A DNA stretch of 64,000 nucleotides from Pseudomonadota bacterium (GTDB lineage: Bacteria > Pseudomonadota > Alphaproteobacteria > SHVP01): positions 1-64,000 of the forward strand of contig JAQBYN010000016.1 in NCBI GenBank assembly GCA_027622715.1. Reading direction: 5' to 3'. Position 1 is the first letter of the stretch; each line of letters opens with the position of its first letter. The notes under the pieces were generated by a model. The model saw only the letters and a program-made list of their open reading frames with translations. It did no database searches and was not told the origin of the DNA. This document shows positions 1,899 to 37,112 of the stretch, piece after piece. The position numbers and the translations under genes are program-made.

Positions 1899-2186
1899 CT
1901 ATTTGGCTTCGTTGAAACGCTTCTCGGCCAAATCGGCTAATGCGGCCAGCGCTTGGGCCGCATCGACGCCACGGGCGGCCACGGTGATGCTCGATCCAAG
2001 GCCTGCGACCAGCAGGAGCAATCCCATGATCGAGCGGCCGGGTACCGTGTGATCGTCCTTGGAGACCGTGATTTCCGCGTCGAAATGACCGGCCACTTCC
2101 ACGAAGCGCGCGGCGGCACGGGCATGGAGACCGCGCTCGTTGATGATCAATAATTCTCGGATCGACCAGCCGTCAGGATCAGTCAT
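1899..2186 (-). CDS. ptsH: HPr-like phosphocarrier protein (PTS)
   Basis: HPr relays phosphoryl groups from enzyme I to EIIA proteins. The 95-residue product has the His21 phosphorylation site in [10 protein letters not shown] and the regulatory Ser52 in GRSIMG, the site used by HprK. The ATG at 2184-2186 was chosen because it overlaps the end of the EIIA gene by 8 bases and gives a normal HPr length. It lies in the run hprK-rapZ-EIIA-ptsH. No sugar permease (EIIB/C) is nearby, which fits the regulatory PTS of alphaproteobacteria. Enzyme I is not in the window. Confidence 0.93.
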
Positions 2187-2580
2187 TGCCAGGTGACGCG
2201 CTCGCACGACGTATATGCTTGCGGCCGGTTTCTTCCACCGCCGCAGCAACTGCTGCCACATCGCGGTTGTCCCGGCTCGTCAGCAGTTTTAACAGCATTG
2301 GCAAATTGAGCCCGGCGATGACTTCTATGTCGGGTCCATGCATTTCTGCAATCGCGAGGTTGCACGGCGTGCCGCCCATCATATCGGCCACGATAATGAC
2401 ACCGTCGCCGCCATCGACATCGGCGACGGCTTGGTGGATACGGTCGCCGCAATCACTGATTTCACTGTTCCAATCCAGGCAGACCGCAGACACACGCTGT
2501 TGCGGGCCAACGACGTGCTCGGCAGCGGTGAGGAACTCACGTCCGAGTCCTCCTTGGGAAACAATAACGACCCCAATCAT
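2179..2580 (-). CDS. Mannose-type PTS EIIA protein with the active His replaced by Gln
   Basis: The 133-residue protein has the EIIA-Man fold signature: MIGVVIVS start, EHVVGPQ, the MMGGTPCNLA loop and LNLPMLLKLL. In the family a histidine at about position 9/10 (consensus V-T/S-H-G) accepts phosphate from HPr. Here that position reads V-S-Q-G, with Gln9 encoded by CAA (minus strand of 2554-2556). One base (CAC or CAT to CAA) would explain it. The rest of the protein looks intact, so it may be a non-phosphorylatable signalling form, or the base may be an error. It overlaps rapZ upstream and ptsH downstream by a few bases, so it is translationally coupled. Family call firm, activity in doubt. 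Confidence 0.9.
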   Translation of the reverse strand: MIGVVIVSQGGLGREFLTAAEHVVGPQQRVSAVCLDWNSEISDCGDRIHQAVADVDGGDGVIIVADMMGGTPCNLAIAEMHGPDIEVIAGLNLPMLLKLLTSRDNRDVAAVAAAVEETGRKHIRRASASPGND

Positions 2581-3500
2581 GATGTCGCGCCGCTCAACGT
2601 GACGTCGCGGTGGCGGCGATTGACCGCATGACCAGCGGCCTCAAGCGTGGTTGCCAGACGCTCGGCAACGTAAACCGAACGGTGCTGCCCGCCGGTGCAG
2701 CCGATCGCAATGGTGAGGTAGGTCTTGCCTTCGCTCGCATAGCGCGGCATCAGGTCGAGCAACAGATCGCCGACGCTCGTCAAGAAGCCGCCAAGCGCGG
2801 GGTCTTCATCAATGTAGTCGGCAACCTCGCGGTCCATCCCGGACTTGGCCGTTAATGCGGGGAGGTAATGCGGATTGCGCAAAAATCTCACATCGAAGAC
2901 GAGATCGGCCTCGCGCGGTAAGCCTTTGCGAAACGAAAATGACGTGAGCGTTGCCGTTAGTGCCGGTCCTTCTTCGAGGCTGTAGTGCCCGGCCAGCAGA
3001 TGCCGCAAGCCGGCACCGGTCATTGCAGACGTATCGATTACGAGATCAGCGTGGTCGCGAAGCCCGCCAATAATCTCGCGCTCCATGCGAATCCCGTCCA
3101 AGACCGGCTGATCTTCGGCCAGCGGATGTCGTCTTCGCGTCTCGGTATAGCGGCGTGACAAAAATTCATCGTCACAATCCAGAAACAACAACGACAGGTC
3201 GATATCGGGCCGCGAAGACAGCGGCGCGATTCGCTCCAAGAAGTGCTCGACATCGAAGTCACGAGTACGGATGTCTATCCCGGCTGCGATGGCGCCATGG
3301 GGCGTGAGAAGCGTTGATGACCCGGAGGTCAAGAAGCCCAGCAATAAGTTCAACGGAATGTTGTCCATTGCCTCATAGCCTAAATCCTCAAGCATTTTGA
3401 GCGTTGTCGAGCGCCCGGCGCCGGAAATGCCGGTCACAAGGAGAACGCGCAATACCGGCGATCCGGACGCGGCGTCGGATTTCGGGTCTTGTTCAGGCAT
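2577..3500 (-). CDS. rapZ: RNase adapter / nucleotide-binding protein RapZ (YvcJ family)
   Basis: RapZ proteins bind nucleotides and, in Escherichia coli, guide RNase E to GlmZ/GlmY small RNAs that control GlmS. The 307-residue protein has a P-loop-type motif GISGAGRST at residues 24-32 (the usual Lys is Arg), the DNIPLNLL segment and the C-terminal GCTGGQHRSV signature that defines the family. It overlaps hprK by 8 bases upstream and the EIIA gene by 4 downstream, so it sits in one operon with the PTS proteins, as is usual in alphaproteobacteria. Whether it acts in RNA decay here or mainly in PTS signalling is not shown by the sequence. Confidence 0.93.
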   Translation of the reverse strand: MPEQDPKSDAASGSPVLRVLLVTGISGAGRSTTLKMLEDLGYEAMDNIPLNLLLGFLTSGSSTLLTPHGAIAAGIDIRTRDFDVEHFLERIAPLSSRPDIDLSLLFLDCDDEFLSRRYTETRRRHPLAEDQPVLDGIRMEREIIGGLRDHADLVIDTSAMTGAGLRHLLAGHYSLEEGPALTATLTSFSFRKGLPREADLVFDVRFLRNPHYLPALTAKSGMDREVADYIDEDPALGGFLTSVGDLLLDLMPRYASEGKTYLTIAIGCTGGQHRSVYVAERLATTLEAAGHAVNRRHRDVTLSGATS

Positions 3501-3951
3501 CGTTGAGGGCCTTCGCCTGGCGGCCGTTGGCGCTCCACGACTTCAGGGCCAATCGGATTTTCGCCGCTGAAGACGCCTCAAAGGGCGCGAGCGCGATGAG
3601 CGGAATGTCGATCGCGTCAAGTCGGCATGTCGTTCGATGGGGTAGCCGCGACACGTCGCCGCTGGGCCCAAGGTCTGCAACCAACGCGACGCGCGACCGC
3701 GGTGAAAGTCGTGCCTCATCAAGTTCGAAAATGCCGAGCCCGCGCACTTCTATCTTGCCCGACAGCTGTGCCGGCGCCGACGCGATGAGTTCGCCCCGCA
3801 CAGCTGCCAACTGAACTTGGTCATCGGCGACAAGCTTCGCGCCGTCGTCAATGAGGCGCAAAGCCAAGTCTGACTTTCCGGTGGCTGACGGTCCACGTAG
3901 CAGGACGGCAACGCCGTCAAAATCGACGCAGGTTGCATGGACAACAAGCAT
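3493..3951 (-). CDS. hprK: Short HPr kinase/phosphorylase
   Basis: HprK phosphorylates, and in some bacteria dephosphorylates, the regulatory Ser of HPr. The 152-residue protein is the short alphaproteobacterial form, lacking the N-terminal domain of the Firmicutes enzyme. It keeps the P-loop GPSATGKS at residues 20-27 and the family segment E-V-R-G-L-G-I-F-E. It starts 24 bases after the chvG stop and overlaps rapZ by 8 bases. This chvI-chvG-hprK grouping is a known alphaproteobacterial arrangement, suggesting that envelope/acid sensing and PTS state are linked. Confidence 0.93.
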   Translation of the reverse strand: MLVVHATCVDFDGVAVLLRGPSATGKSDLALRLIDDGAKLVADDQVQLAAVRGELIASAPAQLSGKIEVRGLGIFELDEARLSPRSRVALVADLGPSGDVSRLPHRTTCRLDAIDIPLIALAPFEASSAAKIRLALKSWSANGRQAKALNDA

Positions 3952-3975: not shown

Positions 3976-5676
3976 TCAAGAGCTGTCAACGGGCGTATTG
4001 AGTGCCGGCAGTTCGATTGTCACCCGCGCGCCCCGCTCGGTCCCGTCCTCACCAGATCGGTTCGTCGCCGAAATCTTACCGTGGTGCGCCTCGATAATTT
4101 GCCTGGAGATGCTCAAACCAAGCCCAGAGTGCTTTCCAAACGCCTCGCCATCGGGTCGTCTGGTGTAGAAGCGCTCAAAGACGCGATCCATCTGTTGAGA
4201 GGGAAACCCTGGTCCCTCATCGTCGCAGGCAATCCGTAACGCGTTCCCGACGCGTGCAAGCGACAATGATATTGCCGAGTGCGGCGGGCTGAATGACCGA
4301 GCGTTATCGACGACGTTGCGCATCACTTGGCCCAACCGGTCTTCAATACCAAGGACAAAGAATGGCCCGTCGTTCGGTATGTCGAGCACCACACTGACGC
4401 CGCCCGGCTCGCCGGTCGCCTCGTGCACTTCGACGATCGTTTCAAGCAAGCGCCGTAGATTGACCGGCGCCATTTGGGTACGAGACAGCTCGGCATCGAG
4501 TCGCGAGGCATCCGAAATGTCGCTCAAGAGCCGATCGATTCGGCCCACATCGTCTCGAATGATTTCGAGCAACTGAAGTCTTTGCGATTCGTCGCGCGCC
4601 TTGTCCAAGGCCTCAACGGCACTGCGCAAGCTCGTCAATGGATTCTTGATCTCGTGCGCGACGTCGGCGGCGAAGGTTTCGATTGCGTCGAGGCGTTTGT
4701 AAAGCGTCGATGTCATGTCGCGGAGCGCACCGGACAACTCACCAATTTCGTCCGCGCGGTCGGTGAAGTCAGGAATCTCGACGACGCGCCCCTGCATGCC
4801 GCGCACGCGCTCGGCGGCCGCTGCGAGTCGTTTCACCGGTGTTGCAATTGTCCTAGCGAGGTAGAGCGATAGCAGCACCGTAATGGCGAGTGCGACACCT
4901 GAGACCTGGAGAATTGCTAATCGGAAATCGCGGACGCGCGCGTCGATATCACGCGTGTCCGCGGTCAGCATCAGTGCGCCGAGCACCCGTTTGAAAGATT
5001 GAATGGGGATCGCGACGGACAAGACAACGTCGCCGTTGTTTCTCGCTCGCTGATCAGAACCAAATTCGCCAGCCAACGCGCGGGTTACTTCTTGGTAGTC
5101 GTGGGCGGCCTGGTCGCCGCGCTCCACATAGGGAGGCAGGCGAGGGCCGCCGGTGACGCCGCGCCAAAGATCGTTCGCAGCCTCGTATGTTTCCTCGATC
5201 AGAGACAAGTCTGCGGCCGGCGGTAGAATCTCGAACTGAACCTCCCGGCCAGCCTCAAGAAGACTGCGACTGTCAGCGATCAGTGCCCCTGCTGGGTCGA
5301 AAACCCGGGCGCGCTCCTGCGTTGGTTCGATCAGGCGGCGAAGAAGTTGCCGGGTCGTTGCTGGGTCAAGTACTGGCCCCGGCGGCTCTTGATTCAAGGC
5401 TGACTCACCAAGTGCGCCAGCAATTATTTCACCTTCGGTCTTCAGGCTTTGGATCTTTGCCTCAACGAGTCCGTCGCCGAACTCGTCGACGTAGAACAGA
5501 CCAAATACGAGGAGCATGAACGCGAGAAGATTGAGCGTCAGGATTCTTGCGGTGATCGAACCGAGCCGTCGCGATCGGACCGTGGCGTGCCGACTGGTCT
5601 GCGGTCGCTCACCCGGAACGACAGCCGCGCCGTTTTCTTGGAGGCGAGAACCCGACTGGCGGCGAAACGAGGTCAT
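3976..5676 (-). CDS. chvG: Sensor histidine kinase, ChvG type
   Basis: This is the inner-membrane kinase of the ChvG-ChvI system, which in rhizobia and Agrobacterium responds to acidity and envelope state. Features of the 566 residues: cytoplasmic N-tail; membrane helix about 44-62; periplasmic sensor about 63-255; second helix about 256-274; HAMP about 275-325; dimerisation/phosphoacceptor segment FAADVAHEIKNPL with His341; and a C-terminal HATPase with DDEGPGFP and GLGLSISRQI. It starts 6 bases after the chvI stop. The ATG lacks a strong ribosome site, consistent with coupling to chvI. The ligand cannot be told from sequence. Confidence 0.92.
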   Translation of the reverse strand: MTSFRRQSGSRLQENGAAVVPGERPQTSRHATVRSRRLGSITARILTLNLLAFMLLVFGLFYVDEFGDGLVEAKIQSLKTEGEIIAGALGESALNQEPPGPVLDPATTRQLLRRLIEPTQERARVFDPAGALIADSRSLLEAGREVQFEILPPAADLSLIEETYEAANDLWRGVTGGPRLPPYVERGDQAAHDYQEVTRALAGEFGSDQRARNNGDVVLSVAIPIQSFKRVLGALMLTADTRDIDARVRDFRLAILQVSGVALAITVLLSLYLARTIATPVKRLAAAAERVRGMQGRVVEIPDFTDRADEIGELSGALRDMTSTLYKRLDAIETFAADVAHEIKNPLTSLRSAVEALDKARDESQRLQLLEIIRDDVGRIDRLLSDISDASRLDAELSRTQMAPVNLRRLLETIVEVHEATGEPGGVSVVLDIPNDGPFFVLGIEDRLGQVMRNVVDNARSFSPPHSAISLSLARVGNALRIACDDEGPGFPSQQMDRVFERFYTRRPDGEAFGKHSGLGLSISRQIIEAHHGKISATNRSGEDGTERGARVTIELPALNTPVDSS

Positions 5677-5682
5677 CTCAAG

Positions 5683-6387
5683 TTATTTCTCGCGGAACCG
5701 GTAGCCTAGTCCGTAGAGCGTTTCGATCGAGTCGAACTCGTCATCCACCTCGCGGAATTTCTTGCGCAGCCTCTTGATGTGGCTATCGATGGTGCGATCG
5801 TCGACGTAGATCTGGTCGTCATACGCGGCATCCATCAGTTGGTCGCGGCTTTTTACGTGCCCGGGCCGGTTTGCCAACGCCTGGAGAATAAGAAACTCAG
5901 TCACGGTAAGACGAACCGATCGACCGTGCCACGTGCAGGCATGGCGCGCCGTATCCATGATGAGGGGCCCCCGCACAATCGGGGTGCCGGCGCCCGGCTC
6001 CGTCGCATCCTTTGGTGTGCTGGTATCGGCACGTCGCAGCACTGCCCGAACGCGCTCCAACAGCAATCGTTGCGAGAAAGGTTTCCGAATGTAATCGTCC
6101 GCGCCCATTTTCAGGCCCAACACCTCGTCGATCTCGTCATCCTTCGATGTCAGGAATATCGCCGGAGTCGTGCTGGTCCGCCGAAGCCGGCTGAGCAGCT
6201 CGTGACCGTCCATCCGCGGCATCTTAATGTCGAGAATGACGAGATCTGCCGGTTTCTTGGTCAGGCCGTCGAGCGCCTCTTGGCCATCGGCGTAGGTGTC
6301 CACCGCGAAGCCTTCGGCCTCGAGCGCAATGGAGACAGAGGTAAGGATGTTTCGGTCGTCGTCGACGAGTGCAATTGTGGCGGCCAC
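5683..6387 (-). CDS. chvI: Response regulator, OmpR family, ChvI type
   Basis: ChvI is the DNA-binding partner of ChvG. The 234 residues comprise a receiver domain with acidic pocket DDD at 9-11, phosphoacceptor Asp53 in LVILDIKMP and a conserved KPF, then a winged-helix output domain ending GLGYRFREK. The start is GTG at 6385-6387 ([11 protein letters not shown]), with GAGGA 6 bases upstream. It is the first gene of a minus-strand run chvI-chvG-hprK-rapZ-EIIA-ptsH and is divergent from the HugZ-like gene across about 250 bases that hold both promoters. In relatives ChvI controls exopolysaccharide and envelope genes, and pckA often lies beside it, as here. Confidence 0.94.
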
Positions 6388-19501: not shown

Positions 19502-20407
19502 CTAAGAGGCGGTGGCGTCTTCGACAGGTTCCTTGCGTGGCGTGGCCACCGCGGGCCGGTGCGTATTCATGAGGAGGTCGAGTATCTGAGATAGTTTGGC
19601 GCGCAGCTCGTGCCGATGAACGACCATATCGATCATGCCGTGTGCGAGAAGAAACTCTGCCCGCTGAAACCCGTCGGGAAGCTGCTCGCGAATGGTTTCC
19701 TCGATAACCCGGGGGCCGGCAAATCCGACGAGCGCCCCTGGCTCGGCAATCGAAACGTCGCCTAACATGGCGTATGACGCGGTGACACCACCGGTTGTGG
19801 GGTCGGTCAAGACGACGATGTAAGGCAAGCGCGCTTCTCGGACCAGTTCAACGGCAATAGTGGTGCGCGGCATTTGCATCAGGGACAGGATTCCCTCTTG
19901 CATTCGGGCGCCGCCAGCTGCGGCAAACACGATGAGCGCCGCTTCTTGCAGGACCGCTAGCCGGGCTGCGGCGATCAATGCCTCGCCCGCGGCTAGTCCC
20001 ATTGAGCCACCCATGAATGCAAAATTTTGGACCGCGATGACGGCACTCTGGCCATCGACGGTCCCGTGGGCGACCACGACGGCCTCGTCCTCGCCGGTTT
20101 TGGCGCGGCTATCGCGAAGGCGATCGGTGTAGCGTTTCTGGTCGCGGAACTTCAAAGGGTCGACAAGGACGTCGGGCAATTCGATTCGGGTGTGACGGCC
20201 CTCGTCGAACAGCGCAGCAAATCGTTGGTTCGGACCGATTCTAAGATGATGATCGCATGACGGACAGATGTGCTGATTTTCCTCTAAGTCGCGGTGAAAC
20301 AGCATTTGTCCGCAACTCGGGCACTTCGACCAAAGGTTCTCGGGAACGTCGCGTTGGCGCGAAAAAGCGCGCATTTTCGGACGGACAAAGTTGGTAAGCC
20401 AGTTCAT
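19502..20407 (-). CDS. accD: Acetyl-CoA carboxylase carboxyltransferase subunit beta
   Basis: AccD with AccA transfers carboxyl from biotin to acetyl-CoA to make malonyl-CoA for fatty acids. The 301-residue protein has the N-terminal four-Cys zinc ribbon (C29, C32, C48, C51), then the crotonase-like carboxyltransferase domain with [10 protein letters not shown] and G-G-A-R-M-Q-E-G. accA is not in the window. It lies 34 bases after trpA, the normal trpB-trpA-accD-folC order of Proteobacteria. Confidence 0.97.
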
Positions 20408-20441
20408 TGGACGTTCAATCTATCATTCTGTGACCCGCCGG

Positions 20442-21272
20442 TCACGAGTCGCGCGCGCCGTGAACGCCGCGCGCGATGTCGCGTACCAGGGCAAGGGTGC
20501 GCTCGACCGTGTGCGCTGTCGCGCGGCCGTCGTCGTCGAGGCTCTCTTGAATTGTGGTGACAATCGCCGAGCCGACGACTGCCGCGTCTGCCGTTCTGGC
20601 AATTTCGGCGGCTTGCGCGGCGTTGCGAATGCCGAATCCCACCGCAATTGGCAGGGCTGTGTGGCGGCGCAATCGGACCACCGCGCTTGCGACTTCGGCG
20701 CTATCGGCGCTCTTGGTACCGGTGATACCGGCGATCGACACGTAGTAGACGAACCCGGAGGTGTTAGTGAGGACAGTGGGCAACCGTTCGTCGTCAGTGG
20801 TCGGTGAGACTAGCCGGATAATACTCAATCCGCGCGACAGTGCCGGGACGCATAGTTCGTCGTCGTGCTCGGCTGGCAAGTCCACGACAATCAGTCCGTC
20901 GACGCCGGCCTTATCGGCATCCGACAAGAAGCGATCGACGCCGTAGCTGTAGATCGGATTGTAGTAGCCCATCAGAATGATCGGGGTCTCGGGGTCGTGC
21001 TGGCGGTGGTCGGCGACCAACGCCAAGACATCGGCAAGCTTTGTGCCGGCGCGCAGCGCCCGCAAGCTGGATGCCTGGACCGCCGGCCCGTCGGCCATCG
21101 GATCGGAGAACGGCATGCCCACTTCGATGATGTCCGCACCGGCTTCGGGTAGGCCGCGCAATAAGGTGGCACAGGTCGCGCGATCTGGATCACCGCCGGT
21201 GATGAAGGGCACGAATGCGGCGCGATTGTCAGCGCGTAACCGGGCAAAGCAACGGGCGAGGCGGTCGCTCAT
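20442..21272 (-). CDS. trpA: Tryptophan synthase alpha subunit
   Basis: TrpA cleaves indole-3-glycerol phosphate to indole, which is channelled to TrpB. The 276-residue TIM barrel shows F-I-T-G-G-D-P-D at residues 23-30, the catalytic Glu in [11 protein letters not shown], and the phosphate-binding G-F-G-I-R-N. It overlaps trpB by an ATGA, so the two subunits are translationally coupled. The other trp genes (trpE, G, D, C) are not in the window, so the pathway is split. Confidence 0.97.
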
Positions 21273-22483
21273 TCCAGGCTCACGCCAATCGCGGCTGCCA
21301 CCGTGAAAACGTCTTTGTCACCGCGCCCGCACATGTTCATCAAAATAATGTGGTCCGCCGGGAGCGATGGCGCCATCCGCATGACGTGCGCCAAGGCGTG
21401 ACTGGGCTCAAGCGCCGGGATGATGCCCTCAAGTTTGCAGCACAGCTGAAAAGCCTCAAGCGCTTCGGCGTCGGTCGCCGAGACATAGCTGACCCGCCCC
21501 TGATCCTTGAGCCAAGAATGTTCCGGCCCAATCCCTGGGTAGTCGAGTCCGGCCGATATCGAATGGGCCTCGGTAATCTGCCCGTCGTCGTCTTGCAGCA
21601 AATAGGTCCGATTGCCGTGGAGCACGCCCGGGCGGCCCCGGGTGAGAGACGCTGCGTGCGCGTCGGTGTCTATCCCCTTGCCGGCCGCCTCGACGCCGAC
21701 GATCGCGACATCTTTGTCGTCAAGAAAAGGATGGAACAACCCCATCGCGTTGCTACCGCCGCCAACGCAAGCGACCAACGTGTCGGGCAGGCGGCCTTCC
21801 CGCTCGGTCATTTGCTCGCGGGCCTCACGACCGATGACCGATTGGAACTCGCGCACCATTTCCGGGTAGGGATGCGGACCCGCCACGGTGCCGATGATGT
21901 AAAACGTGTCGTGAACGTTTGCGACCCAGTCGCGCAACGCCTCGTTCATCGCGTCTTTCAACGTCCGCGACCCGGACGTCACGGGCCTGACTTCGGCGCC
22001 GAGCAGCTTCATACGAAAAACGTTGGGCTGCTGACGGGCGATATCGGTCTCGCCCATGTAGACGATGCAAGGCATCCCGAATAACGCGGCGACGGTCGCC
22101 GTTGCGACGCCGTGCTGTCCGGCGCCGGTTTCGGCGATGATTCGAGTCTTACCCATGCGCCGTGCTAGCAGGATCTGACCCATGCAGTTATTGATCTTGT
22201 GAGATCCGGTGTGATTGAGCTCGTCGCGTTTGAAATAGACCTTCGCGCCGCCAAGGTGTTCCGTCAGCCGCTTCGCGAAATAGAGCGGGCTGGGCCGGCC
22301 AACGTAGTCGCGCAAATATTCGTCCAACTCGGCGCGAAAGGCCGCGTCACTGCGCGCAATATTCCATGCCTTTTCCACCGAAAGAATGAGAGGCATTAGT
22401 GTTTCGGCGACAAACCGTCCGCCAAAAATACCGTAATTGCCGTTCTCGTCGGGCCCGGTCCGGAATGAGTTCGCGGTCGTCAT
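21269..22483 (-). CDS. trpB: Tryptophan synthase beta subunit
   Basis: TrpB is the pyridoxal-phosphate subunit that joins indole and serine to tryptophan. The 404-residue protein has the PLP lysine in H-T-G-S-H-K-I-N-N, the phosphate-binding G-G-G-S-N-A-M-G and the [11 protein letters not shown] segment. It lies 3 bases after trpF and overlaps trpA, so trpF-trpB-trpA form one translational block. Confidence 0.98.
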
Positions 22484-36644: not shown

Positions 36645-37112
36645 TTAGGCCGCGTGTGAGGTTGCCGCCTGTTCGGTGAGGATCGCAAATACCGCATCAC
36701 GCCCGTCCGACCCGCGGATCTTTTCGCATAAGGCGCGGTCCCTGAGGAGGCGGGAAATGCGGGCCAACGCTTTCAAGTGGTCGGCGCCGGCCGTCTCCGG
36801 CGCAAGCAAGACAAATACTAAATCGACTGGTTCGTCGTCGATCGCATCAAAATCGATCGGACGCTCCAATCGAGCAAATATGCCGTGGAGACGATCCAAG
36901 CCCTTGAGTTTTCCATGCGGTATGGCAATGCCGTGGCCTACGCCGGTGGTCCCGAGCCGCTCGCGTTCGAGAAGGATGTCGAAAATCTCGCGCTCATCCC
37001 GTCCGGTAATTCTCGCCGCCACGATCGCGACTTCCTGCAAGGCTTGTTTCTTGCCCGTAACCTTTAGATTCGAGACCACCGCCTCGGAACTGAGTAAGTC
37101 AGATATTTCCAT
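36645..37112 (-). CDS. ptsN: Nitrogen-PTS protein EIIA-Ntr
   Basis: The 155-residue EIIA-Ntr has the phosphorylatable His66 in A-I-P-H-G-K, so this branch of the regulatory PTS is intact, unlike the EIIA at 2179-2580. The family controls potassium uptake, sigma-54 functions and other targets by direct binding. It lies downstream of rpoN on the same strand, but a promoter at 37276-37305 could serve it independently. ATG 37110-37112 directly follows the stop of a 33-codon ORF. Confidence 0.95.
   Translation of the reverse strand: MEISDLLSSEAVVSNLKVTGKKQALQEVAIVAARITGRDEREIFDILLERERLGTTGVGHGIAIPHGKLKGLDRLHGIFARLERPIDFDAIDDEPVDLVFVLLAPETAGADHLKALARISRLLRDRALCEKIRGSDGRDAVFAILTEQAATSHAA

Follow-up and report, generated by a model that had tools for sequence, protein, structure and literature searches.

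What becomes of an EIIA-Man protein whose phospho-acceptor histidine has been replaced? This question is raised by the manX gene (2179–2580, minus strand) in the 64,000-nucleotide stretch of alphaproteobacterial DNA analyzed here, which we refer to as the window. The gene encodes a 133-residue protein that begins MIGVVIVSQGG. Its ninth codon (2554–2556, minus strand) is CAA, placing a glutamine in the motif V-S-Q-G at the position that aligns with the phospho-acceptor His9 of the Brucella and Rhizobium ManX proteins. The original prediction, made from the window alone, proposed that the signaling chain would end at a protein that cannot be phosphorylated and that may act as a locked regulator.

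The product matches the Pfam family EIIA-man (PF03610; E = 5.9e-24, above the cut-off), and its match to NCBIfam TIGR00824 falls below the cut-off of that model. AlphaFold2 models it confidently with the fold of EIIA-Man (mean pLDDT 91, pTM 0.86), for which the best structural matches are 3lfh, 3ipr, 2jzn, and 1pdo. We also compared the protein with the residues that solved structures of the family mark as strictly conserved or as functional, including active-site and HPr-contact residues (PMC7587183). The histidine alone has been lost; the counterparts of Gly11, Gly26, Asp67, Gly71, Ser72 (threonine here), Asn75, Gly94, and Asn96 are all kept. Codon 66 (2383–2385, minus strand; GAT) still encodes the aspartate whose counterpart partners the active-site histidine in canonical EIIA-Man proteins (PMC7587183). 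In sequence, in fold, and in the conserved neighborhood chvI-chvG-hprK-(rapZ)-manX-ptsH, the protein agrees with the ManX branch of the Alphaproteobacteria, and it lacks the phospho-acceptor of the family (His9/His10). These comparisons mark it as an EIIA-Man homologue by descent that lies outside the family in its phosphoryl-accepting sense. A second EIIA-Man gene had been suggested as something to look for; the window copy was the sole match in the 3.15-Mb assembly (86 contigs, estimated 100% complete with 0.2% contamination).

The gene lies in a compact minus-strand cluster. The start codon of ptsH (1899–2186), encoding HPr, overlaps the end of manX, and the stop codon of rapZ (2577–3500) overlaps the manX start codon. 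Further along are hprK (3493–3951), which is of the short alphaproteobacterial type, and genes for a ChvG-like sensor histidine kinase (3976–5676) and a ChvI-like response regulator (5683–6387). This order, chvI-chvG-hprK-rapZ-manX-ptsH, matches the arrangement known from Alphaproteobacteria (PMC2937029; PMC3665714). On the other side of the cluster, positions 376–1773 encode an S-adenosylhomocysteinase (ahcY), to which relatives in three genomes of the family (G007, G008, and G009) match piecewise from about residue 180, which suggests that members of the family differ here by an insertion or a deletion. Adjoining ahcY, positions 1–243 hold what by eye is the C-terminal end of an IS3-like transposase frame truncated by the contig start.

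The remaining components of the nitrogen phosphotransferase system (PTS-Ntr) are present and carry their phosphorylation sites. As originally predicted, His21 and Ser52 of HPr, the P-loop of HprK (GPSATGKS), and His66 of EIIA-Ntr (ptsN, 36645–37112, minus strand; motif IPHG) are intact, and the same holds for the phospho-histidine motif SPTSH of EI-Ntr, a GAF-domain protein of 754 residues. All four proteins are encoded by single-copy genes, and their phosphorylation and P-loop motifs are intact across the genus. Apart from EIIA-Man, EIIA-Ntr was the one PTS acceptor that the genome yielded. With the upstream relay and EIIA-Ntr intact, the EIIA-Man branch ends at a residue that cannot be phosphorylated by the known route, which supports the original prediction at the sequence level. 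The active-site motif of EI-Ntr varies elsewhere in the family, reading SATEH in G003 and SPNAH in G007, with the histidine kept. Many other Alphaproteobacteria have a second enzyme I directly downstream of HPr whose match is confined to the portion that lacks the GAF domain (L038:6711, L048:6584, L056:6589, L060:6724, L061:6774, and other loci); none was seen in the family of the window.

We surveyed position 9 in related genomes, since the prediction would have been refuted had close relatives all carried histidine. Glutamine was found in the whole genus (3/3 genomes; codons CAA, CAA, and CAG), the EIIA-Man proteins of the two other members being 80 and 74% identical to that of the window. 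It also occurs in G007, which represents another genus of the same family (codon CAA, 50% identity). Two other genera of this family (G008 and G009) have histidine, as do 168/168 alphaproteobacterial EIIA-Man proteins from outside it, which form 109 clusters at 85% identity. A pattern search for the motif with a glutamine codon across 385 genomes of the class, 265 of them with EIIA-Man, matched only the two genomes of the window genus included in that sample and one chance site, VCQ, in a genome for which no EIIA-Man is listed. A sequencing or assembly error has a negligible probability, because four separately assembled genomes agree on Gln9, with differing codons and proteins of 50–80% identity to that of the window. 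The alignments thus identify Gln9 as a real substitution. We found no earlier report of an EIIA-Man without its histidine in the literature searched, which is weak evidence of novelty.

A second change accompanies the first. Position 73 (codon 2362–2364, minus strand; TGC) is cysteine in all four Gln9 sequences. It is serine in every outside sequence (168/168) and in the two family members that keep histidine; Cys73 was seen only together with Gln9, in both glutamine lineages. The genus of the window also carries R45G, T65A, F68M, and S78A at positions that are each invariant outside the family, the last of these being present in the histidine-bearing G009 as well. In the same comparison, 161 of the outside sequences break none of the invariant positions, six break one, and one breaks three. 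Asp66 and Thr71 sit on the loop and at the start of the helix that T65, F68, and S73 border, and this pattern therefore indicates remodeling of the active site rather than of the whole protein. The four additional substitutions of the genus could also have altered the interface with a target, beyond the effect on phosphorylation.

We then asked whether the pair of changes arose once or twice. In a tree of seven genes (2017 columns, with manX positions 9 and 73 excluded), the window genus groups with G009 and G007 groups with G008, with 100% support. A topology in which the two glutamine-bearing genera are sisters, as expected for a single gain, was rejected by the AU test (p = 0.0003, and p = 0.005 when ptsP was omitted). 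An earlier concatenated tree with 31 outgroups recovered the same topology with weak support (68–70), and manX by itself, after masking of columns 9 and 73, was compatible with both topologies (AU 0.46 and 0.63). The glutamine lineages are therefore not sisters, and Ser73Cys is the single additional unique change that they have in common; the pair thus probably arose independently in the two genera. A single gain followed by reversal of both sites in two genera, or transfer of manX between the glutamine lineages, could formally produce the same distribution. Against either of these, the rare residues common to both glutamine lineages are limited to Gln9 and Cys73, and manX of the window genus shares V4, G13, and A78 with G009, its neighbor in the species tree. 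Genome G003 lacks hprK, rapZ, manX, and ptsH and counts neither way, because all four genes would be expected in one stretch of an assembly that is 90% complete.

The established chemistry of the EIIA-Man family is that glutamine cannot take the phosphoryl group. We consider it probable that His9Gln has uncoupled the window ManX from the PTS-Ntr phosphorelay, and that the protein is folded, selected, and kept as an unphosphorylated, constitutive regulator. Under this model, ManX without its acceptor would be held permanently in the unphosphorylated state and would act constitutively on central metabolism; the nitrogen/PEP signal passing through EI-Ntr and HPr would reach EIIA-Ntr only, which would make this protein the sole known sink for phosphate. 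We infer all three of the central elements, namely the lack of phosphorylation, the constitutive activity, and the target, and phosphate might still be carried on another residue of the protein.

Studies of related bacteria lend this model its rationale. In Brucella melitensis, experiments with purified proteins established a relay from EI-Ntr through NPr to both EIIA-Ntr and EIIA-Man; the latter was phosphorylated by P~NPr, with His9 as the site predicted from its sequence (PMC2937029). In the same study, unphosphorylated EIIA-Man was put forward as a binding partner and inhibitor of 2-oxoglutarate dehydrogenase, and EIIA-Man was seen to interact with SucA in a setting where the dephospho form is presumably the only one present (PMC2937029). 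SucA is the candidate target that Brucella offers for the window protein. In Rhizobium leguminosarum, a non-phosphorylatable ManX H9A variant complements the swimming defect of a manX mutant; in the authors' view, the active forms are unphosphorylated ManX and phosphorylated PtsN (PMC7617929). Because the unphosphorylated H9A protein is an active form in that work, it strengthens the originally suggested locked, non-phosphorylated regulator, which is the best reading of the sequence data. The two systems differ in the proposed sign of the effect, which is inhibition of the TCA cycle in Brucella (PMC2937029) and activation in Rhizobium (PMC7617929), so that a Gln9 ManX might act in either direction.

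The history of the relay in the family leaves room for another explanation, namely that PTS-Ntr is eroding and that the Gln9 protein has lost its signaling role, persisting only because its gene overlaps rapZ and ptsH or because some structural role is left to it. Three AT-rich genomes of genus g3, with completeness values of 64, 83, and 98%, gave no match to EI-Ntr, HPr, HprK, or EIIA-Man; two of them have a GC content of about 30% at rapZ (L232 in G005 and L233 in G006). All three keep EIIA-Ntr with its histidine (L223 in G005, L224 in G006, and L225 in G004), and this protein may work there without the relay. In addition, ptsP of G008 (L193, G008:C31, about 20108–22032) is interrupted by an in-frame stop and is missing some 100 residues, around 344–447, including the phospho-histidine; manX with its histidine is present nonetheless. 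If this is not an assembly fault, G008 has HPr, HprK, and both EIIAs and no working EI. Such losses indicate that the relay is unstable in the family. For the Gln9 protein itself, however, pairwise dN/dS within the genus is 0.08–0.10 for manX, no worse than 0.08–0.10 for rapZ or 0.10–0.22 for hpr (chvG, 0.07–0.11), all of these values being rough because dS is near saturation. Such ratios point to a manX gene maintained under constraint. Gln9 has moreover been preserved through a synonymous codon change (CAA/CAG), the identical Gln/Cys pair occurs in two lineages, and all other strictly conserved residues are retained. With these observations in mind, we regard decay as unlikely.

Two further explanations grant the protein an interaction with HPr and differ in where the phosphate goes. 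Cys73, at the start of the phosphoryl-binding helix, might take the phosphate of HPr in place of His9. Its exclusive occurrence with Gln9 in both lineages would fit such a shift, as would its location two residues away from Thr71, which corresponds to the Ser72 that holds the phosphoryl group in E. coli (PMC7587183), and the established use of cysteine by PTS EIIB domains of several families (PMC2937029). In the window genus, the neighboring changes T65A and F68M suggest relaxed chemistry instead. The phenylalanine at position 73 of E. coli EIIA-Man also counts against a cysteine acceptor, and to our knowledge no EIIA uses cysteine in this way. We consider this shift very unlikely. A broader version, in which the Gln9/Cys73 pair is a convergent conversion of ManX to a new mode, with either the phospho-acceptor switched to Cys73 or the protein made a thiol-sensing regulator that works independently of phosphorylation, seems quite improbable to us. 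Alternatively, the protein could dock on P~HPr, accept no phosphate, and slow the flow to EIIA-Ntr. The HPr contacts Asn75, Gly94, Asn96, and Pro96 of published structures appear to be kept as N74, G90, N92, and P94, though the same conservation is expected from mere inherited HPr binding, and we give such a decoy role little credence.

The constitutive, unphosphorylated regulator that we favor can be placed beside several known systems. It shares with the ManX proteins of Brucella (ptsM), Rhizobium, and Sinorhizobium the cluster chvI-chvG-hprK-manX-HPr/NPr, the fold, the active-site numbering (His9), and its status as single EIIA-Man; it differs in having Gln9 and Cys73 for His9 and Ser73, along with the other four changes of its genus. 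An engineered equivalent is the R. leguminosarum H9A protein, which is likewise non-phosphorylatable at the equivalent position and complements the swimming defect (PMC7617929). That allele was made in the laboratory, whereas the glutamine here arose naturally and has become fixed in a clade. E. coli EIIA-Man (1pdo and 2jzn) has a similar fold (TM 0.86–0.88) and the counterparts of Asp67, Asn75, and Gly71, but it carries His10 and works for a sugar permease. The closest precedent is Crh of Bacillus and Parageobacillus, a PTS protein in which glutamine replaces the phospho-histidine and which is purely regulatory (PMC9631020). The window protein resembles it in combining a His-to-Gln change at the phosphorylation site with an otherwise conserved protein; the likeness is one of working principle only and we claim no homology. 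Crh is an HPr paralogue (Gln for His15) found alongside a functional HPr, and it retains its phosphorylation on Ser46 (PMC9631020). In the present case, the sole EIIA-Man of the genome is altered, and no other phosphorylation sites are known for it.

Phosphorylation of ManX in Alphaproteobacteria has so far been studied through engineered H9A and phosphomimic alleles. The Gln9 ManX would be a natural, EIIA-side counterpart of Crh. Beyond the substitution first noticed, the comparison adds a co-occurring change, Ser73Cys, which provides a concrete linked residue for testing, and two probable origins. Evolution appears to have made and kept a non-phosphorylatable manX allele, probably on two occasions, and this argues for a function that belongs to unphosphorylated ManX itself and would be separable from nitrogen signaling through EIIA-Ntr.
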